Source: Formosa sediminum (lineage in GTDB: Bacteria > Bacteroidota > Bacteroidia > Flavobacteriales > Flavobacteriaceae). From it: 64,000 nt of DNA. The notes under the pieces were generated by a model. That model did not search any database, was not told the origin of the DNA, and saw nothing but the letters and a program-made list of their open reading frames with translations. Position numbers and translations under genes: made by a program. Shown here in pieces: positions 24,156 to 64,000 of the stretch (position 1 is its first letter; every line of letters starts with the position of its first letter). The DNA lies in NCBI RefSeq assembly GCF_007197735.1, contig NZ_CP041637.1, positions 2,327,001-2,391,000 on the forward strand, read 5' to 3'.

Positions 24156-27100
24156 ATGACCTACTTTTTTTCTGCTTGTACCCCGACAGGCATAAACTTT
24201 TCAAGACTTTTGGTTTTCAAAAACCTATGCTTACTAGCTTTATTTGTTTTAATTACGTCATTAACTTTTGCGCAAACCAAAGCATTTCCATCAGCATATG
24301 GTGCAGGAGCTTATACTACTGGCGGCCGTGGAGGAGATGTGTATCATGTTACCAATTTAAATGATAGTGGCTCTGGTAGTTTTAGAGAAGCTCTTAAACA
24401 ATCTAATAGAACAATTGTATTTGATGTAAGTGGAATTATTCAATTAAAATCTTTATTGGCTACTTCTGTTGATAATATTACAATAGCTGGGCAAACTGCA
24501 CCAGAAGGAGGTATTACTATAGATGGTAGTCGAGTGTATTTTAGTGGGGTTGATAATATTATAGTAAGACATATTAGGTTTAAAGGTGGAGTAGATTATG
24601 GAGATGATAGTTTTACAGCGGCTTCTTCAATGACTAATATAATTTTTGATCATTGTACATTTGCTTTTGGGGCAGATGAGAGTGCGAGCTTCTACACTAC
24701 AGAAGCGGGAAGTACAATTAAAAATATTACAGTGCAAAGGTCGTTATTCTCAGAAAGTAAAAATGGCTCTATTTTTGGTGGATATGCAGAACGAGAAATG
24801 ACTGTAGGACAAATTTCTGTGATTAATAATATGTATTACAATGCTTCTCATAGATTTCCCAACATAGCAGGAAACGATGGTGAGTTTGAAGTGATTAATA
24901 ATGTTATATGGACTGTTAAAAACAGGCTAATAAGAGGGGATGGCGAGTTTAAGCTTAATCATATTAATAACTATTATGATTATGGTGTTAGACCTCTTCA
25001 AGATACAAGAATTCAATGCTATACTTACAAAGATGGGACCATTCCTGCCATTTATACTTCCGGGAATAAATACGTTGCAGTAAATAGTCAATCGCCAACA
25101 AATAGTGTGTCAGAATTAAATGCAAATAATAAATTAGCTTGGAAATTCTTTTTAGATGGCGGTGGATATGCTAGAGGTGATCAGATTCCTGATAATTATT
25201 TTGTAAATAATCAATATGGCTTATTCGGTGCTAAAATGAGTATTCAATCTGCAGATGCTGCTTTTAATGATGTAAAGTTTGATGTAGGTTGTAATGCGCG
25301 ATTGAATGCAGATGGATCTTCTTCATCTAATTTAGATCTTCTAGATACAGAATGGTTAACTAATGTACAAAAAGGAATCTATACAGAACGTCTAGAAACA
25401 TCTGCTTATAAAGTGCCCGCTTTTACCTCTAAAACCAGACCTTCAGATTACGATACAGATCAAGATGGAATGGCAGATGAATGGGAGCGTAAAACTTTTG
25501 GCAATTTAAATAAAGATGGACTTGGAGATGCAGATGGTGATGGTTATACCGATCTAGAAGAATTTTTAAATGGAGTAGATGAGGGGAATTCTCAAGATAT
25601 AATACCTTCTTTAGAAGTAATTGCAGGAGAAGATGAAACAATTTGTAACGGGGCTGAAATTACACTTACAGCATCAGGAGCTTCTTCTTATTTATGGAGT
25701 ACTGGTGACACTACAGCAAGTATTACTGTATCTCCAGAAAACACAACGACTTATACTGTAACTGGTGAAGATAGTTATGGAAATTCGGATACAGATGAAG
25801 TTTTAATTACTGTTGTAGATTTGACTTCTGTAGATGCAGGGGAAGATGTCACAGTTTGTGAGGATGGAAGTATAGAATTAAGGGCTACAGGTGCAGGTGA
25901 ATTTGAATGGAGCACAGGAGAAAAAACACAATCAATTACGGTCTCACCAAATAAAACAACCACGTACACGGTTACTGCTACTAACGGAATATGTTCAAAT
26001 TCCGATGAAGTCACAGTAACCGTGTCACCCAGGCAAACGATAAACGCCGGAAGTGATGTTAACATAGAATTAGGAGAAAGCACAACGTTGTCTGTATCTG
26101 GATCAGGATCTGTACTTTGGAGTACAGGAGAAATTACGCGAGATATTACCGTTTCACCTACAGTATCAACTACATATACTGTAACGGTTTCTGAAAACGG
26201 ATGTGAAGCACAAGACGAAGTTACTGTAGTAGTATCAGAAACAGTTGTAGAAGTTATCGCAGATGCCGGAGATAATGAAACTATTTGTGAGGGAGAAACG
26301 GTAACATTAACAGCAAGCGGCGGATCAACTTACAAATGGAGTACAGGAGCAACAACTCAAAGTATCACGGTAAGTCCAAGCACAACGACAACATATTCAG
26401 TAGAAGTGTTTGAAGGTGCTGTTTCAGCAACAGCAACAGTCACAGTACAAGTCTATGCATTACCAGTTGCTAATGCCGGCGCAGACCAAACCATAGAAGA
26501 AGGTGAAAGTATTACACTAACAGCAAGTGGCGGATCAACCTACAGCTGGAGTAACGGATCAACATCTCAGAGTATTACAGTTAGTCCAAATCAAACGACA
26601 ACTTACACCGTAGAAGTTTCAAACGAAAACGGATGTTCAGATAGTGATGCAGTTCAAGTTATTGTAAATGCTAAAAAGGTAGAAGTTATTGCTGATGCCG
26701 GAGAAGATCAAGCTATCTGTGAGGGAGAAACGGTAACATTAACAGCAAGCGGCGGATCAACTTACAAATGGAGTACAGGAGCAACAACTCAAAGCATCAC
26801 GGTAAGTCCAAGCACAACGACAACATATTCAGTAGAAGTTTTTGAAGGTGCTGTTTCAGCAACAGATGAAGTCACAGTACAAGTCTATGCATTACCAGTT
26901 GCTAATGCGGGCGCAGACCAAACCATAGAAGCAGGTGAAAGTATTACACTAACAGCAAGTGGCGGATCAACCTACAACTGGAGTAACGGATCTACGTCTC
27001 AAAGTATTACAGTTAGTCCAAATGAAACGACAACTTACACCGTAGAAGTTTCAAATGAAAACGGATGTTCAGACAGTGATGCAGTTCAAGTTATTGTAAA

Positions 27101-28247
27101 TGCTAAAAAGGTAGAAGTTATTGCAGATGCCGGAGAAGATCAAGCTATCTGTGAGGGAGAAACGGTAACATTAACAGCAAGCGGCGGATCAACTTACAAA
27201 TGGAGTACAGGAGCAACAACTCAAAGCATCACGGTAAGTCCAAGCACAACGACAACATATTCAGTAGAAGTGTTTGAAGGCGATGTTTCAGCAACAGCAA
27301 CAGTCACAGTACAAGTCTATGCATTACCAGTTGCTAATGCCGGCGCAGATCAAACCATAGAAGCAGGTGAAAGTATTACACTAACAGCTAGTGGCGGATC
27401 AACCTACAGCTGGAGTAACGGATCAACATCTCAGAGTATTACAGTTAGTCCAAATCAAACGACAACTTACACCGTAGAAGTTTCAAACGAAAACGGATGT
27501 TCAGATAGTGATGCAGTTCAAGTTATTGTAAAAGCTAAAAAGGTAGAAGTTATTGCAGATGCCGGAGAAGATCAAGCTATCTGTGAGGGAGAAACGGTAA
27601 CATTAACAGCAAGCGGCGGATCAACTTACAAATGGAGTACAGGAGCAACAACTCAAAGCATCACGGTAAGTCCAAGCACAACGACAACATATTCAGTAGA
27701 AGTGTTTGAAGGTGCTGTTTCAGCAACAGCAACAGTCACAGTACGAGTATATGCATTACCAATTGCTAATGCTGGCGCAGATCAAACCATAGAAGAAGGT
27801 GAAAGTATTACATTAACAGCAAGTGGAGGTACTGAATTTTTATGGAGTAACGGATCAACGTCACGAAGTATTACAGTTAGTCCAAATCAAACAACGTTAT
27901 ATTCGGTAGCGGTTTTTAATGAATTAGGTTGTTATACAGAAGATGAAGTTGTAGTTATTGTAGAAGCATTTAAAGGGGAGGAAATTGAAGAAGAAATAGA
28001 ATTTGAGTTCAATATTTATCCTAATCCAACATCAGAATTATTAAATTTAAAAATTTCAGGACTTGATCAAGCCATACCAGTTAGAATATATGATATGTCA
28101 GGAAAAGTGTTGTATAACAATATTATTGAGTCTGATGGAAGTTTAAGGCATGAAGTTTTAAATTTATCTTCTTATCCAAAAGGATTCTATGTATTATCTA
28201 TTATTAAAGCAGGTAATACAATTACTAAAAAAATTGTAGTCAAATAA
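24156..28247 (+). CDS. Secreted pectate-lyase-like protein with Ig-like repeats and T9SS sorting domain
   Basis: A 1363-residue exported protein. The signal peptide ends near FAQ-TKAF (about residue 40). A right-handed beta-helix domain of the polysaccharide lyase 1 type (about 41-420) includes IIFDHCTFAFGADES (D165, H166) and SHRFP with R233, a plausible catalytic Arg. Calcium-binding DxDxDG-type loops follow (DTDQDGMADEW at 433; DADGDGYTDLEEF near 458). Eleven Ig-like domains with WS(T/N)G...ITVSP...TTTY signatures occupy about 485-1273; the last eight form four 144-residue units. A type A sorting domain (FNIYPNPTSELLNL from 1285) sends it through the type IX system to the surface. Substrate is unknown: pectin, alginate-like uronan or own polysaccharide are all possible. 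Confidence 0.82.
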   Translation: MTYFFSACTPTGINFSRLLVFKNLCLLALFVLITSLTFAQTKAFPSAYGAGAYTTGGRGGDVYHVTNLNDSGSGSFREALKQSNRTIVFDVSGIIQLKSLLATSVDNITIAGQTAPEGGITIDGSRVYFSGVDNIIVRHIRFKGGVDYGDDSFTAASSMTNIIFDHCTFAFGADESASFYTTEAGSTIKNITVQRSLFSESKNGSIFGGYAEREMTVGQISVINNMYYNASHRFPNIAGNDGEFEVINNVIWTVKNRLIRGDGEFKLNHINNYYDYGVRPLQDTRIQCYTYKDGTIPAIYTSGNKYVAVNSQSPTNSVSELNANNKLAWKFFLDGGGYARGDQIPDNYFVNNQYGLFGAKMSIQSADAAFNDVKFDVGCNARLNADGSSSSNLDLLDTEWLTNVQKGIYTERLETSAYKVPAFTSKTRPSDYDTDQDGMADEWERKTFGNLNKDGLGDADGDGYTDLEEFLNGVDEGNSQDIIPSLEVIAGEDETICNGAEITLTASGASSYLWSTGDTTASITVSPENTTTYTVTGEDSYGNSDTDEVLITVVDLTSVDAGEDVTVCEDGSIELRATGAGEFEWSTGEKTQSITVSPNKTTTYTVTATNGICSNSDEVTVTVSPRQTINAGSDVNIELGESTTLSVSGSGSVLWSTGEITRDITVSPTVSTTYTVTVSENGCEAQDEVTVVVSETVVEVIADAGDNETICEGETVTLTASGGSTYKWSTGATTQSITVSPSTTTTYSVEVFEGAVSATATVTVQVYALPVANAGADQTIEEGESITLTASGGSTYSWSNGSTSQSITVSPNQTTTYTVEVSNENGCSDSDAVQVIVNAKKVEVIADAGEDQAICEGETVTLTASGGSTYKWSTGATTQSITVSPSTTTTYSVEVFEGAVSATDEVTVQVYALPVANAGADQTIEAGESITLTASGGSTYNWSNGSTSQSITVSPNETTTYTVEVSNENGCSDSDAVQVIVNAKKVEVIADAGEDQAICEGETVTLTASGGSTYKWSTGATTQSITVSPSTTTTYSVEVFEGDVSATATVTVQVYALPVANAGADQTIEAGESITLTASGGSTYSWSNGSTSQSITVSPNQTTTYTVEVSNENGCSDSDAVQVIVKAKKVEVIADAGEDQAICEGETVTLTASGGSTYKWSTGATTQSITVSPSTTTTYSVEVFEGAVSATATVTVRVYALPIANAGADQTIEEGESITLTASGGTEFLWSNGSTSRSITVSPNQTTLYSVAVFNELGCYTEDEVVVIVEAFKGEEIEEEIEFEFNIYPNPTSELLNLKISGLDQAIPVRIYDMSGKVLYNNIIESDGSLRHEVLNLSSYPKGFYVLSIIKAGNTITKKIVVK
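26247..27974 (+). repeat. Four tandem 432-bp coding repeats (two Ig-like domains each)
   Basis: Units start at 26247, 26679, 27111 and 27543, with an exact 432-bp period and no frame change. Each encodes a pair of Ig-like domains of about 75 and 69 residues. Units 2 and 3 are nearly identical at the DNA level; the start of unit 1 and the end of unit 4 are diverged. Near-identity in third codon positions points to recent duplication or gene conversion. Confidence 0.93.
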
Positions 28248-57650: not shown

Positions 57651-58295
57651 TTATAAATCCATTTTCTTTAATTCTCTATAATTGCGATTTAACCTTTTTA
57701 GTAAAATACCATAAATTAGCCAATAAAATCCGAGTAATATAGTAATGGTAATGGTTAAAATTCCAGCGGTAATTAATATGATATTTGAATAAAACATAAA
57801 TATTTGGCCGCTAGCAGCAGCTTCATTTAGTTTTGAGCTTAAATGAGGATCTTGTTTAATATCTAATAACAAAACGGCTATTGTAGAAATTACTATAAAA
57901 ACAAGGTTAAAAATGACATACAGTTTTACAGTATGACGAGTTTTTAAAATATTTTCCATTAACTTCTTTGCACTATCAGTAGTAGATATCTTTTTGTAGT
58001 TCTTGTAAAACAAGTAAAAGAAGTAAAATAAAACGATATAGGCTACAACGGATAAAACTTCTAAAACAGTTTCTATAACAGTTCCTTTAAAACGAGTTAT
58101 ACTTTCATTATCCTTAAAACTAAAGGATATTATAGTCCAAAATACAAATTCTAATAAGCTAATTATAAAAATCCATTTCACGGTAGAAGAGGATTTTTTT
58201 AAATGCATTTTATAAATATCATTATAGGATAACTTCGGAAAGTTTTGATTTTCCGGTTTATTCCAGTCTTTCTTTAAAAGATCTAATTCATCCAT
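57651..58295 (-). CDS. Four-TM membrane protein linked to the ECF sigma factor
   Basis: A 214-residue protein. The cytoplasmic N-terminus (1-40) has LLKKDWNKPENQNFPKLSYNDIY, followed by about four TM helices (42-60, 80-105, 123-142, 165-190) and a short basic tail. No similarity to FecR or RseA domains is visible. It starts 7 bp after the sigma gene on the same strand and is probably a membrane-bound regulator or anti-sigma-like partner, by position only. Databases often mislabel such proteins. Confidence 0.75.
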   Translation of the reverse strand: MDELDLLKKDWNKPENQNFPKLSYNDIYKMHLKKSSSTVKWIFIISLLEFVFWTIISFSFKDNESITRFKGTVIETVLEVLSVVAYIVLFYFFYLFYKNYKKISTTDSAKKLMENILKTRHTVKLYVIFNLVFIVISTIAVLLLDIKQDPHLSSKLNEAAASGQIFMFYSNIILITAGILTITITILLGFYWLIYGILLKRLNRNYRELKKMDL

Positions 58296-58302
58296 AGATT
58301 TT

Positions 58303-58797
58303 TTACGGATTTAAAATGGTTTTTAATTTCGTTTTTACCCGATTCATCTTCACTCTGGCATTCACTTCACTTATTCCCATTGTTTCACTAATTTCTTTAT
58401 AGTTTTTGTCCTCTAAATACAAAAACACAAGTGCTTTTTCAATGTCGTTTAATTGTTTTACGGCACTGTAAAGCAGTTTTAATTGTTGTTCCTCAGTATC
58501 GTCATACTCTTCCGCTTTTATTCTAAATTGAACAGCATCAAAATTCTGAGTTGTAATTGTTCGTTTCGATTTTCTATATAACGTAATAGCAGTGTTTAAT
58601 CCAATACGATACATCCAAGTACTAAACTTTGCATCACCACGAAACTTTGGATACGCTTTCCAAAGTTGAATAGTAATTTCTTGAAACAAATCGTTGTGAG
58701 CGTCATAATCATTCGTGTACAAACGGCACACTTTATGAATGATGTTTTGATGCTCTTCAAGCAATTGTATAAAGTTATGTTCTTGGTCTTTATTCAA
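58303..58797 (-). CDS. ECF-type RNA polymerase sigma factor
   Basis: A 164-residue sigma-70-family ECF factor: region 2 with VCRLYTNDYDAHNDLFQEITIQLWK-like sequence and FSTWMYRIGLNTAI, region 4 with LNDIEKALVFLYLEDKNYKEISETMGISEVNARVKMNR. It is first in a two-gene minus-strand unit with a 4-TM partner. The gap on its 5' side leads to the TonB-receptor gene, but nothing shows it controls that gene. Signal unknown. Confidence 0.9.
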   Translation of the reverse strand: MNKDQEHNFIQLLEEHQNIIHKVCRLYTNDYDAHNDLFQEITIQLWKAYPKFRGDAKFSTWMYRIGLNTAITLYRKSKRTITTQNFDAVQFRIKAEEYDDTEEQQLKLLYSAVKQLNDIEKALVFLYLEDKNYKEISETMGISEVNARVKMNRVKTKLKTILNP

Positions 58798-59261: not shown

Positions 59262-59297
59262 CATTTACAATTCATCCTAAAAATATAACAGTTGGGT
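59262..59297 (+). promoter_or_regulatory. LytTR-type twin direct repeat upstream of the TonB receptor gene
   Basis: Direct repeats ACAATTCAT (59267-59275) and ACAGTTGGG (59288-59296), 12 bp apart. They fit the LytTR pattern [TA][AC][CA]GTTN[AG][TG] (one mismatch in the first, none in the second). The block CATTTACAATTCATC-N12-CAGTTNGGT recurs at 61801. Confidence 0.7.
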
Positions 59298-59329
59298 CTT
59301 ATAAAGTTCTGTAGCTCTCTATTCCGTTT

Positions 59330-59337
59330 CATTTTTG
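59330..59337 (+). promoter_or_regulatory. Degenerate -7 element CATTTTTG of the receptor gene
   Basis: One mismatch from TAnnTTTG. It stands 48 bp (last base) from the C of CAGTT in the repeat, the same distance as in the matching element at 61869-61876. No -33 TTG is present, which fits activator dependence. Confidence 0.5.
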
Positions 59338-59361
59338 TGTTGTTAACTAAAACAATCAACC

Positions 59362-61524
59362 ATGAAACTTTTGCATTCACTCTTATTTATTATTTGTTTT
59401 TTCAATCTAGGTACATCTGTTTCCCAAACCTTAATTTCGGGTCAGGTTAAAGATGTTAAAAATAATCCTATTGTAGGCGCTAATGTCTATATAGAAGGCT
59501 CTTATGATGGAGCAACCACAGACGAGGCTGGCGCATTTAGTTTTAAAACCACAAAAACTGCTTCGCAAACGCTAATTGTTTCATTTTTAAGTTACGAGAC
59601 GTATCGTAAATACGCAGATGTGTCCGCATTCCAAGATATTATTGTTAAGCTTAAAGAAGACGTTAATACATTAGACGCCGTGGTACTTTCTGCAGGAACT
59701 TTTTCAGCTGGAGATAATAGTAAGGTAAATGCATTATCTGCGCTAGATGTAGTTACTACGGCAAGTGCGGTAGGCGATTTTGTAGGAGCGTTACAAACGT
59801 TGCCAGGAACCACAACAGTTGCCGAAGACGGAAGGTTGTTTGTGAGAGGTGGTGAAGCCGACGAAACTCAGATTTTTATTGATGGTGTTCGGGTATTTAC
59901 GCCTTACACACCTACTACCAATAATGTGCCTTCTAGAGGGCGATATTCGCCATTTTTATTTGATGGTATTACGTTTTCTACCGGAGGGTATTCTGCCGAA
60001 TATGGTCAGGCCTTATCCAGTGTACTTTTATTAAATACCATTGATGAGCCTGAACAAAACAAAACAGATATTGGTATAATGACCGTTGGAGGCGCATTAG
60101 GACATACTAAAAAATGGGATAAAAGTGCTTTAAGTGTAAATGGGTCGTATATAAATTTGGCGCCCTATAACAAGCTGTTTCCAGATAGAAATGATTGGGA
60201 AAAGCCATACGAAGGTTTTTCTGGTGAAGCCGTTTATCGTAGAACATTTGATAATGGCTTGTTTAAGTTGTATTCGGCATTAGAGTATAGTGTGTTTGAG
60301 TTAACTCAAGAAGATATTAATTATGCTAATGGCATTCACTATCGGTTAAAAAATAGAAACTTGTATGTAAACACGTCGTATCAAGGGAAGTTAAATTCAA
60401 ACTGGTCTGTATTTGCGGGTGGGAGTTATACTAATAATAAATTAGATACAGAGGTTATAGATGATACGGTTGATAATTTAGAACATTCTATACATGCTAA
60501 ATTTAGATTGAAATACCGTTTTAATAACAGGTTTAAATTGAATTTTGGAATCGAGTATTTTCTAACCATTTTTGATGAAACTCACACCTCCCCAACAGTA
60601 GATGCAGAACCTTATGGTTTTAATGCTAATATTGCAGCAGCCTTTACTGAAGCCGATATGGTGTTTACAAAAAAGCTAGCATTAAAAGCTGGAATAAGAG
60701 CAGAATATAGTGAGTTTTTTAAAGCTTTTGAGGTGGCTCCGCGGGTATCTTTAGCATATAAAACGTCGTCTAAGAGTCAAGTATCTTTGGCTTATGGTTT
60801 GTTTTATCAAAATCCAAACAACGATGTTTTAAAGTTTAATCAAAATATTGATTCAGAGAAAACTAGTCATTACATATTAAACTATCAGTTAAATACAGAC
60901 GGACGTTTGTTTAGAGCAGAAGCCTATTATAAAAACTATTCAAATTTAATAAAATATAATACAGAATATATTAGTTATAATAGTGTGTTTAATAATACTG
61001 GTTATGGCTATGCCAAAGGGATAGATTTGTTTTTTAGAGACAATAAATCTCTTAAAAATTTTGATTATTGGGTGAGTTATTCCTTCCTGGATACCGAACG
61101 CGATTATAAAAATTACCCTACCGCTGCACAACCAAATTTTGCAAATACACATAACTTGTCTGTCGTTGGAAAATATTGGATAGACCATTGGAAAAGTCAG
61201 GTGGGATTTAGTTACAGTTTAGCATCTGGACGTACGTATACCAATCCCAATGAAACAGGCTTTTTAAACCAAAAAACAAAAGCTTACAATAGTTTAAGTT
61301 TAAATTGGGCGTATTTATTAAGTCCACAAAAGATTTTATATCTGTCTGTTAGTAATGCATTAGATTTTAAAAATGTTAATGGGTATCAATATGCAAATAC
61401 GCCAAATAGTAATGGGGTGTATGATAGACGTGCATTAAGACCTGCAGCCGATCAGTTTTTCTTTATCGGGTTCTTCTGGACCATTAGCGATAATGGTACC
61501 GATAATCAATTAGATAATTTATAA
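59362..61524 (+). CDS. TonB-dependent outer-membrane receptor
   Basis: A 720-residue protein: signal peptide (about 1-21, ending SVSQ), carboxypeptidase-regulatory-like domain (about 22-110, SGQVKDVKNNPIVGANVYI), plug domain (about 115-225, with GALQTLPGTTTVAEDGRLFVRG and IFIDGV) and a beta-barrel to the C-terminus. The barrel is short for a SusC-type protein and no SusD follows, so an iron-chelate, cofactor or peptide importer is more likely than a glycan importer; the ligand is unknown. A LytTR-type site lies upstream. Confidence 0.87.
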   Translation: MKLLHSLLFIICFFNLGTSVSQTLISGQVKDVKNNPIVGANVYIEGSYDGATTDEAGAFSFKTTKTASQTLIVSFLSYETYRKYADVSAFQDIIVKLKEDVNTLDAVVLSAGTFSAGDNSKVNALSALDVVTTASAVGDFVGALQTLPGTTTVAEDGRLFVRGGEADETQIFIDGVRVFTPYTPTTNNVPSRGRYSPFLFDGITFSTGGYSAEYGQALSSVLLLNTIDEPEQNKTDIGIMTVGGALGHTKKWDKSALSVNGSYINLAPYNKLFPDRNDWEKPYEGFSGEAVYRRTFDNGLFKLYSALEYSVFELTQEDINYANGIHYRLKNRNLYVNTSYQGKLNSNWSVFAGGSYTNNKLDTEVIDDTVDNLEHSIHAKFRLKYRFNNRFKLNFGIEYFLTIFDETHTSPTVDAEPYGFNANIAAAFTEADMVFTKKLALKAGIRAEYSEFFKAFEVAPRVSLAYKTSSKSQVSLAYGLFYQNPNNDVLKFNQNIDSEKTSHYILNYQLNTDGRLFRAEAYYKNYSNLIKYNTEYISYNSVFNNTGYGYAKGIDLFFRDNKSLKNFDYWVSYSFLDTERDYKNYPTAAQPNFANTHNLSVVGKYWIDHWKSQVGFSYSLASGRTYTNPNETGFLNQKTKAYNSLSLNWAYLLSPQKILYLSVSNALDFKNVNGYQYANTPNSNGVYDRRALRPAADQFFFIGFFWTISDNGTDNQLDNL

Positions 61525-61608
61525 GTTAGTAAGTGTGTATCTTAATTTTTGGGTAGAAGTTACCGTATGTGTTGCTTAGGGCTTTAAAAGTAAAACACTA
61601 AAGATGTT

Positions 61609-61731
61609 GGGCTTATCGAAAATTTATCCAAAAATTTCAAGTTGCTTGTTTATTTCCGGTTCTTTCTTTTTACTGCAAGTTGTGGCGAGTTCTTGAAATT
61701 TAGGTAAAGGTTGGTAAGCCTAGATTTTTTT
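61609..61731 (+). terminator. Long imperfect hairpin with T tract after the receptor gene
   Basis: Arms pair in three blocks: GGCTTATC (61610-61617) with GGTAAGCC (61713-61720), TTTATCC with GGTAAA (bulged), and AAATTTCAAG (61632-61641) with CTTGAAATTT (61692-61701). A 50-nt loop is inside, and seven T follow at 61725-61731. It likely ends the receptor transcript; it might also be a structured RNA. Confidence 0.55.
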
Positions 61732-61800
61732 GGTTCATTTTTTTAACAACGAAAGAAATAAACGTAGAGTCTTTAGGGTGTAAGCTATGCAATAATTATC

Positions 61801-61836
61801 CATTTACAATTCATCACATAAAAACTACAGTTCGGT
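61801..61836 (+). promoter_or_regulatory. LytTR-type twin direct repeat upstream of the small periplasmic gene
   Basis: Direct repeats ACAATTCAT (61806-61814) and ACAGTTCGG (61827-61835), 12 bp apart, within CATTTACAATTCATC-N12-CAGTTNGGT, identical in form to the element at 59262. A GATATTTG (-7-like) lies at 61869-61876, at the same offset, and the ATG at 61905. Confidence 0.7.
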
Positions 61837-61904
61837 ATATCGTTTTTTTAAAACCTCCGCTTTCCATAGATATTTGCTGTATAATCATTTAATAACCAAT
61901 CAAT

Positions 61905-62528
61905 ATGAAACATTTAATTCTTTTAGTCGTGATTTTAGTCAATGTAATTGCTAATGCACAATCAGATTTCGAAAACGGTATGCAAAAAGCCTTTGCGTTA
62001 TGGCAAGACAATAAGCTTACAGAGTCAGAGCAGCTTTTTGAGCGCATTGCAGCAGCCGAACCAGACCAATGGTTGCCTAACTACTATGTTGCGCAATTAA
62101 ACAGTTTAAAGAGCTGGAGAGAAAAGGATGCCACCGTAATTAAAGCTAATTTAGATAAGGCACAGGAGTATATAAATACTGCGCAAGGCATAAGCCCAAA
62201 TAATGAATATATTTTAGTGTTACAAGCTCAAGTATACACCAATTGGGTGGCTTTTGATGGAATGGCCTACGGGATAAAATATTCTGGTAAGATTACAGAA
62301 CTCTATGAAAAAGCCTATGCTATTGCTCCAGAAAACCCAATGGTGGTGTTAGGTAAAGCAGAATGGGGTATGGGTACCGCTAAGTATTTTGGGCAGGATA
62401 CAGCACCGTTTTGTAAAGATATAGAACGCGCTTTACAACTTTTTGCTAACTTTAAACCTGAAACACCATTGCATCCGCTTTGGGGAGAAGAACGTGCTAA
62501 GAGTGTACTGGCATCGTGTAAACAATAA
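61905..62528 (+). CDS. Exported TPR-like protein of unknown function
   Basis: A 207-residue protein with a signal peptide (cleavage near NAQ, about 19) and helical repeats resembling TPR: MQKAFALWQDNKLTESEQLFERIA (about 25-48), DKAQEYINTAQGISPNNEYIL, LYEKAYAIAPENPMVVLGKAE. It should be periplasmic. It carries the same upstream site as the TonB receptor gene and is followed after 17 bp by the LytS-type kinase gene. It may be part of the same signalling module; function otherwise unknown. Confidence 0.8.
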   Translation: MKHLILLVVILVNVIANAQSDFENGMQKAFALWQDNKLTESEQLFERIAAAEPDQWLPNYYVAQLNSLKSWREKDATVIKANLDKAQEYINTAQGISPNNEYILVLQAQVYTNWVAFDGMAYGIKYSGKITELYEKAYAIAPENPMVVLGKAEWGMGTAKYFGQDTAPFCKDIERALQLFANFKPETPLHPLWGEERAKSVLASCKQ

Positions 62529-62545: not shown

Positions 62546-63883
62546 ATGATTAAATCTAAAAAAAATATAATAGTCACATTCGCCATAGGTTGCATTGTCT
62601 ACCTTATAGGTAACCTTTGGTTTGGTAATTTTAATTACCAATCGGTAAACGATTTTTTAATAGACTTTATATTTTATCAGCTCTATGCTTTCATACTAGG
62701 CTATTCTAACATGGCGTATTTTCAGTTTTTATCTACTAGAAACTGGAAAAATAATCAACAAATTTTAAGACTAGTAATTGGTTTTGTAGGGGCTTCGTTA
62801 ATTACATTATTAGGTTTATTCGTTATTCATGCAGTAACAAGACTAGTTTATCAAGGGCTTTCATTTAGTGAGTTTTTAGCAAGCGAGCGTTTATCCGATT
62901 ATATTTTCGGATTCTGGATAACCATGAGTATTGTTGTTGTGTTTCATATCGTGTATTACTACAATGCATACCAGCAAAAGAAGCTTAAGGAACAAAAAGT
63001 TATTGCAGGAACGGCAAGTGCGCAATTCGAGAGTTTAAAAAATCAAATCGATCCGCATTTTTTATTTAACAGCCTCAATGTATTAACCTCTTTAATCGAA
63101 GAGAATCCAGACAGCGCACAACGATTTACGGTGTCTTTATCTAAAATTTATCGCTATGTTTTAGATCAAAAAGATAAAGAGTTAGTCACAGTCGCCGAAG
63201 AACTTAGATTTGCTAAAACGTATATGAATCTGCTTAAAATGCGATTCGAAAACAGTATCGTATTTCAATTGCCAGAAGACTACGATCAGCCAGAAGCTAA
63301 AGTGGTGCCATTGTCCTTACAGTTGTTGTTAGAAAACACCATTAAACACAACACGGTAAGCGAGCAAAAACCATTAGAAATTACTATTACAATAGAAGAC
63401 AACGTATTAGTTGTTAAAAATAATTTACAAAAGAAAGAGGTTTTACAAACCCGTAAAGGTGTAGGATTACAAAACATAGTAAATCGCTATGCCATATTAA
63501 CTAACAGAAAAGTGTTGGTAGACGAAACTCCAGAGTATTTTGCAGTTAAAATACCAATACTTACAAAACGCATTTCAATTATGGAACCAACAAAACATCA
63601 ATACAACGAACAAGACGCTTACTACCGCGCTAAAAAACGCGTAGAAGAAATAAAAGGCTTTTACGGTAATTTAATCTCATACTGCGTGGTTATCCCAGTA
63701 CTTATATTTATCAATTATAAAACCTTTTGGGGTTACCAATGGTTTTGGTACCCTATGTTAGGATGGGGAATGGGACTCGTGTTTCACGCTATATCGGTCT
63801 TCGGATACGGTAAATCGTGGGAAGAACGCAAAATACAAGAGATATTAAAAAAAAACGAAAAACAACAAAAAAATTGGGACTAA
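62546..63883 (+). CDS. LytS/YehU-type sensor histidine kinase fused to a 2TM domain
   Basis: A 445-residue membrane kinase. The N-terminal membrane part has about four TM helices (10-145). The His-kinase domain has the phospho-acceptor H171 in QIDPHFLFNSLN, N-box LLLENTIKHN and G-box GVGLQNIVNRYA. From about 351 a 2TM domain follows (YYRAKKRVEEIKGFYGN, two TM helices near 367-384 and 390-410). Such kinases pair with LytTR response regulators, not visible in the window but expected just downstream. Start 17 bp after the TPR-like gene; the next gene overlaps by one nucleotide (TAATG). Confidence 0.88.
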   Translation: MIKSKKNIIVTFAIGCIVYLIGNLWFGNFNYQSVNDFLIDFIFYQLYAFILGYSNMAYFQFLSTRNWKNNQQILRLVIGFVGASLITLLGLFVIHAVTRLVYQGLSFSEFLASERLSDYIFGFWITMSIVVVFHIVYYYNAYQQKKLKEQKVIAGTASAQFESLKNQIDPHFLFNSLNVLTSLIEENPDSAQRFTVSLSKIYRYVLDQKDKELVTVAEELRFAKTYMNLLKMRFENSIVFQLPEDYDQPEAKVVPLSLQLLLENTIKHNTVSEQKPLEITITIEDNVLVVKNNLQKKEVLQTRKGVGLQNIVNRYAILTNRKVLVDETPEYFAVKIPILTKRISIMEPTKHQYNEQDAYYRAKKRVEEIKGFYGNLISYCVVIPVLIFINYKTFWGYQWFWYPMLGWGMGLVFHAISVFGYGKSWEERKIQEILKKNEKQQKNWD

Positions 63884-64000
63884 TGGAAAATTCATACTTC
63901 GAACAAGAACGCTACGAACGCGCAAAAAAACAAGTAAGACGTGTAAGCGGCTTTTACAGACATGCTTTAGTATATGCTGTTATTAACATAATAATTGCCA
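63883..64000 (+). CDS. 2TM domain protein (partial, cut by window end)
   Basis: 39 codons are visible: the start MENSYFEQERYERAKKQVRR is followed by VSGFYRHALVYAVINIIIA, the beginning of the first TM helix. It matches the C-terminal 2TM domain of the upstream kinase (YYRAKKRVEEIKGFYGN). The start codon overlaps the kinase stop by one nucleotide, so the two are translationally coupled. Whether it continues into a LytTR or other domain cannot be seen. Confidence 0.85.
   Translation, partial: MENSYFEQERYERAKKQVRRVSGFYRHALVYAVINIIIA

Follow-up and report, generated by a model that had tools for sequence, protein, structure and literature searches.

What controls two neighbouring genes, for a TonB-dependent receptor and a tetratricopeptide repeat (TPR)-like protein, that lie near the end of a 64,000-nucleotide stretch of Formosa sediminum DNA (contig NZ_CP041637.1, positions 2,327,001 to 2,391,000; hereafter the window) and are each preceded by the same 36-bp element? 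A preliminary description of this DNA had placed the elements 100 and 104 bp before the ATG codons at 59362 and 61905, had recognized in each two 9-mers with starts 21 bp apart and a 12-bp spacer, and had regarded the match in spacing as beyond chance, all of which was borne out. Our analysis indicates, with high probability, that the elements serve as control region for a two-component regulon of the LytS/LytTR type, conserved in the family Flavobacteriaceae and more weakly beyond it, which would act by activation and positive feedback. The LytTR-type operator-promoter unit is real and conserved, and to judge from gene order and site distribution it very probably belongs to a self-controlling two-component regulon; the LytS/LytTR system as such is of a known general kind. 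The sites and genes concerned are as follows.

59262-59297 (30-base core 59267-59296), plus strand: LytTR-type direct-repeat operator before the TonB receptor gene
61801-61836 (30-base core 61806-61835), plus strand: LytTR-type direct-repeat operator before the TPR-like gene
59362-61524, plus strand: TonB-dependent receptor, 720 amino acids, CarbopepD_reg_2 and Plug domains
61905-62528, plus strand: TPR-like protein, 207 amino acids, signal-peptide-like start, HusA-like fold
62546-63883, plus strand: LytS-type histidine kinase, 445 amino acids, C-terminal 2TM domain
63883-64000, plus strand, continuing beyond the window to window-equivalent 64197 (L014:6883-7197): separate 2TM protein, 104 amino acids
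Window-equivalent 64318-65073 (L014:7318-8073), outside the window: LytTR response regulator, 251 amino acids, receiver and LytTR domains

The core of both sites is ACAATTCAT-N12-ACAGTT[GC]GG. When scored with a matrix made from 112 sites of relatives (own genome excluded, rows not deduplicated), the two sites reached 44.6 and 42.4 bits; the runner-up in the window had 5.9, and the highest score from 20 simulated windows was 3.2. The genome scan proposed in the preliminary description showed that the motif is not randomly spread: with up to 3 mismatches, the pattern matched the whole 3.93 Mb genome three times (reversed control, once), namely at these two sites, both perfectly, and at one further position with 3 mismatches. 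A promoter profile from which the window had been left out found the two sites at E values of 5.6e-14 and 1.1e-11 and, next, a partial match at 0.0022 (150 of 9635 first-look candidates scored). A loose generic LytTR pattern (up to 3 mismatches) was uninformative within the window, with 121 matches versus 119 expected; its zero-mismatch matches in the window were these two sites only.

Since a long element is common to neighbouring genes, the matches could be thought to arise by chance or from a copied promoter segment without function. The two promoters of the window agree at 23 of the 30 site positions and at 6 of the 8 positions of the promoter octamer described below, whereas they agree at only 12/33 positions between site and octamer, 8/24 after it and 31/96 upstream. 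Because the similarity is limited to the site and the octamer, the two promoters do not appear to be recent copies of each other; together with the scores far above simulation and the conservation among relatives, which already contradicts this explanation, this leaves it a negligible probability.

To describe that conservation, 487 relatives of the TPR-like gene were considered, and the best 80, all named and the closest from Formosa, were fetched with their loci. A site scoring at least 15 of 18 was present within 800 bp upstream of the TPR-like gene in 80/80 relatives, and one scoring at least 16 in 79, while 14 of 1,517 random 800-bp windows from the same loci reached 16, some of them possibly being true sites of other genes. 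All 72 half-site pairs not more than 45 apart upstream of the TPR-like gene in these loci had an offset of 21. Downstream, a kinase label was found in 79/80 and a regulator label in 75/80 loci, and in many of them a DUF2141 gene lies between the site and the TPR-like gene. In a sample of 199 genomes of the family, the pattern with up to 2 mismatches was found in 75 (reversed control, 2: G147 and G190).

The site also co-occurs with the regulator across this sample. We ran a profile of 60 promoters, the window's own left out, against the 199 genomes, taking a match at E 1e-50 or better as presence of the regulator and one at E 1e-5 or better as a strong promoter match. Strong promoter matches were found in 136 of the 153 genomes with the regulator, in contrast to 2 of the 46 without it (G006 and G051). 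This association supports the proposal of a self-contained circuit acting on the importer and the repeat protein, the scope of which was too narrow, as the DUF2141 gene and the kinase/regulator operon would also belong to it in relatives. By site position, the predicted targets are the TonB receptor, the TPR-like protein, the kinase/regulator genes and, in relatives, the DUF2141 protein. In genomes without a TPR match, of which a subset was covered by fetching 13 stretches around sites from 11 genomes, the site is ahead of the kinase-regulator genes in 6/13 stretches, either directly (L155, L157, L163), past a DUF2141 gene (L154, L160) or past an open reading frame of 61 amino acids (L158); in two it stands before a DUF2141 gene alone (L159, L164) and in five before other genes. 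The site is likewise ahead of the kinase-2TM-regulator genes in L251. In a genome of the same genus (G014), which has no TPR match, the interval between the sigma factor gene and the kinase gene lacks the TonB gene, and the site that it carries ahead of the kinase operon is weaker (score 15). The position of the site ahead of the kinase/regulator genes suggests positive autoregulation.

These distributions also bear on which regulator binds. Ten LytTR domains were found in the genome, so that another of these regulators, or several sharing the sites, might be responsible; in relatives, moreover, sites can be many kilobases away from the regulator, and the two regulator-negative genomes with a strong promoter match point the same way, as would a weak partial profile match (E 1.1, among 49 matches) some 0.7 kb ahead of another LytTR domain (3555907), which we took for chance. 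Pattern and profile scans of the genome, however, placed both strong sites at this locus and none beside the remaining nine LytTR genes, and the co-occurrence in the family and the placement of the site before the kinase-2TM-regulator genes where TPR matches are missing favour the regulator of this locus. We therefore regard binding by another LytTR regulator as quite unlikely.

Several observations weigh against the proposed regulon or limit the numbers that speak for it. With a looser threshold of E 0.01, the promoter match is found in 147/153 genomes with the regulator and in 17/46 without it. Seventeen of the 153 regulator-positive genomes lack a strong match (G007, G011, G022, G061, G080, G094, G103, G116, G120, G135, G150, G158, G160, G164, G182, G190 and G191); 11 of these have a promoter match at E between 1e-5 and 0.01, and G007, G022 and G061 have weak regulator matches only. 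Conversely, G006 and G051 have the strong match without the regulator. Both scans scored a limited number of candidates per genome, at least 9 of the 60 profile rows were taken from sampled genomes, and, since the genomes share common ancestry, the Fisher value is indicative only and not a true probability. Distal sites in relatives stand before TonB receptor, DUF2141, DUF2807, DUF4440 protein, serine hydrolase and unlabelled genes; the sites before serine hydrolase, DUF4440 and DUF2807 genes weigh against the proposal. At the present locus, 120 bases separate the 2TM gene from the regulator gene, making co-transcription of the regulator uncertain. In a class-level sample of 295 genomes, a strong match was found in 10, of which 8 (own included) were Flavobacteriaceae. 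Outside the family, the regulator-bearing operons of a small, post hoc set tend to have the putative site, the 9/9 split of loci having been drawn after viewing the data; 18 of 540 random 370-nucleotide windows there reach 14, and the regulator-free locus L290 also scored 14, though its opposite strand holds a regulator operon.

A role in envelope stress through DUF2807, a domain that has been united with Toastrack (PMC11237479), was considered and left as a lead, as no DUF2807 gene of this genome has a strong site.

Together, site and core promoter make up a single unit, in which ACAATTCATC-N11-ACARTTSRG is followed at fixed spacing by a non-consensus -7 octamer. In the window the octamers are:

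59330-59337, plus strand: non-consensus -7 octamer CATTTTTG, predicted transcription start at about 59342
61869-61876, plus strand: non-consensus -7 octamer GATATTTG, predicted transcription start at about 61881

In both promoters, 32 bases lie between the end of the element and the octamer. The preliminary description had thus seen the octamers and their equal placement correctly and misjudged the distance, given as 48 bp; the positions it had named for RNA starts, 59362 and 61905, are the start codons. In the transcription map of Flavobacterium psychrophilum, the -7 box covers -12 to -5 (PMC9723704), which places the starts at about 59342 and 61881 and the centre of the site at about -60.5. 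Upstream of the TPR-like genes (the 80 relatives together with the window's two promoters), a run of T is found at site positions 39-42, followed in nearly all by the octamer GATATTTG at 63-70; among TonB promoters, the T-run lies at exactly 39-41 in just 2/22, being shifted elsewhere a few bases downstream. Among sites scoring at least 15 (101 loci, not deduplicated), TTTG occurs at the octamer distance before 21/22 TonB, 45/45 TPR, 45/47 DUF2141 and 5/5 kinase-labelled genes, and before genes of other labels in 6/29, many of the latter being single chance matches. The octamer retains the A..TTTG portion of the housekeeping -7 box, and its first base is the consensus T (TAnnTTTG) in 1 of the 112 promoters with a site score of at least 16; for comparison, T comes first in 105 of 225 XAnnTTTG matches from 351 ordinary upstream regions and in 41/126 in the reversed control.

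This geometry bears on two further explanations. The regulator might repress rather than activate these promoters, as a LytTR-type repressor, PlnD, is known (PMC2714321) and the position by itself is compatible with repression; the site nevertheless lies wholly upstream of the core promoter, with its centre at about -60, and an octamer deviating from the consensus at its first base in 111/112 copies fits dependence on an activator, so that repression seems unlikely. The promoters might otherwise be driven by the neighbouring extracytoplasmic function (ECF) sigma factor, encoded at 58303-58797 on the minus strand, given that sigma and probable anti-sigma genes flank the TonB receptor or the kinase operon in several relatives. 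Such a sigma gene is present in 11/80 TPR loci, in contrast to the site in 80/80; sigma factors are not known to contact direct repeats near -60. The octamer, moreover, keeps A..TTTG, whereas a CGT box is part of an ECF motif predicted for flavobacteria (PMC9723704), and control by this sigma factor is thus very improbable. The sigma gene and the one that follows it, which probably encodes a membrane protein and perhaps the anti-sigma factor, span 57651-58797, divergent from the TonB receptor gene, and the pair occurs at the same spot in several relatives, even where the TonB gene is absent (L155, L163, L251).

What can be read from the sequence in favour of LytTR control is thus the kinase and LytTR regulator genes in line, two operators of LytTR layout and a constant distance between operator and core promoter. 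The membrane kinase would sense a signal and phosphorylate the regulator (Asp53 by our count). Two regulator molecules would then occupy the direct repeat, which has a 21-bp phase and is centred about 60 bp upstream of the start, and would bring RNA polymerase to a promoter that is presumably weak alone because the first position of its -7 octamer departs from the consensus T. This would switch on the genes for the TonB receptor, the TPR-like protein, the kinase and the 2TM protein, possibly together with the regulator gene, and so produce positive feedback.

The assignment of the kinase at 62546 to the LytS class agrees with its His_kinase domain (PF06580, E 2.7e-25), and the motif D-P-H-F-L-F-N-S-L-N-V-L is unchanged across 24 aligned kinases; the structure model of the kinase was of low quality (predicted local distance difference test, 71; predicted template modelling score, 0.37). 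The LytTR regulator gene, which had been expected just right of 64000, begins 318 bases past the window end, in the same direction as the kinase gene and downstream of the 2TM gene, and its product has PF00072 (E 8.3e-13) and PF04397 (E 3e-22) domains. A sequence search of PDB with the regulator returned receiver domains, and a search with the LytTR domain by itself gave a single weak entry (3d6w, E 0.0012); the TonB receptor had no close relative by sequence among solved structures, the search giving one short SusC-homolog chain (E 0.00045). The 2TM and regulator genes are separated by a GC-rich stretch with the look of a repeat (L014:7198-7317, window-equivalent 64198-64317); that it might be a dispersed repeat was considered and ruled out, as it is single-copy in the genome. 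Relatives (L074-L153) differ in how many small 2TM genes separate the kinase gene from the regulator gene, and some loci include an amidohydrolase gene there. Next after the regulator gene, here and likewise in many relatives, is a gene for a LETM1-related biofilm-associated protein (NF040639; L014:8090-9274, minus strand). Elsewhere in the window (26577-27902), a 30-base stretch recurs in nearly identical copies at 26577, 27009, 27441 and 27873 with a period of 432 bases, perhaps as repeated domains within one long gene.

The Pfam TPR matches of the TPR-like protein are below the curated cut-off, and its best match in both fold and sequence is the haem carrier HusA. It adjoins a related TonB receptor in 18/18 distant loci examined. 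Most likely, the two envelope proteins pair up for outer-membrane uptake in the manner of HusB-HusA, with haem, a different porphyrin or some other hydrophobic compound as ligand; of the whole proposal, this step is the least certain. The HusA-HusB system of Porphyromonas gingivalis shares the TPR-like fold, the sequence profile match and the outer-membrane receptor partner (PMC6173696). According to a profile alignment that is perhaps off locally, of nine HusA groove residues F80 is aromatic in 12/12 TPR-like proteins and L122 appears as V or I in 12/12; on the other side, the HusA-like porphyrin pocket was mostly not found (W130, Y164, P126 to glycine in 12/12, the rest of the nine differing). 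A further difference from HusA-HusB is the LytTR control predicted here, which the excerpted text on that system leaves unmentioned (PMC6173696). As a tentative scenario, somewhat short of an even chance, a phylum-wide uptake pair of TonB receptor and HusA-like TPR protein may have formed an ancestral operon with its own LytS-LytTR switch, which would have been split in Flavobacteriaceae, with every piece keeping or gaining a copy of the activator-dependent promoter unit; the outcome would be a small regulon with positive feedback that serves the uptake of haem, porphyrin or some other hydrophobic nutrient. Among the matches listed in the open-licence literature, there was neither an account of the regulon nor a LytTR binding site in Bacteroidota. 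The present unit offers, for a LytTR regulator of Bacteroidota, an operator and promoter that extend across the family and can be tested, and would tie a LytTR switch to a widespread uptake pair.

Among known systems, BtsS/BtsR and YpdA/YpdB of Escherichia coli share the combination of a LytS-type kinase with a LytTR regulator, and BtsS/BtsR also has a transporter gene, btsT, as target (PMC10653868). Their sites consist of two repeats of 9-11 bases with a spacer of 11-13 bases, a layout that the present sites fit with 9-base repeats and a 12-base spacer, whereas the half-site differs, that of YpdB being GGCATTTCAT (PMC4847170). Here, in contrast to both systems, the genes of the system itself are also downstream of the site. 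Flavobacterium johnsoniae has a LytTR gene and a kinase gene, FJOH_RS09515 and FJOH_RS09520, at least one of which is listed as mutated in each of 5/5 coevolved lines (PMC10197871). The identity of this pair with the present system is mildly disfavoured, because the consecutive tags leave no space for a 2TM gene between them.

In comparison with agr of Staphylococcus aureus, no signal-peptide gene was noticed at our locus, where no search aimed at one was made. The agr operon itself is controlled by AgrA, a feature shared with the self-control proposed here. At P2/P3, AgrA resembles the regulator described here in its LytTR domain, in direct repeats centred at about -60 and in core promoters with off-optimal spacing (PMC4227749). 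The present system differs in its LytS-type kinase with a C-terminal 2TM domain and in its targets, which are outer-membrane proteins of a member of Bacteroidota. If the transcription starts placed here are right, the same geometry in Bacteroidota and Staphylococcus, with a site centred at about -60 and a weak core promoter, suggests a common LytTR mode of polymerase activation.
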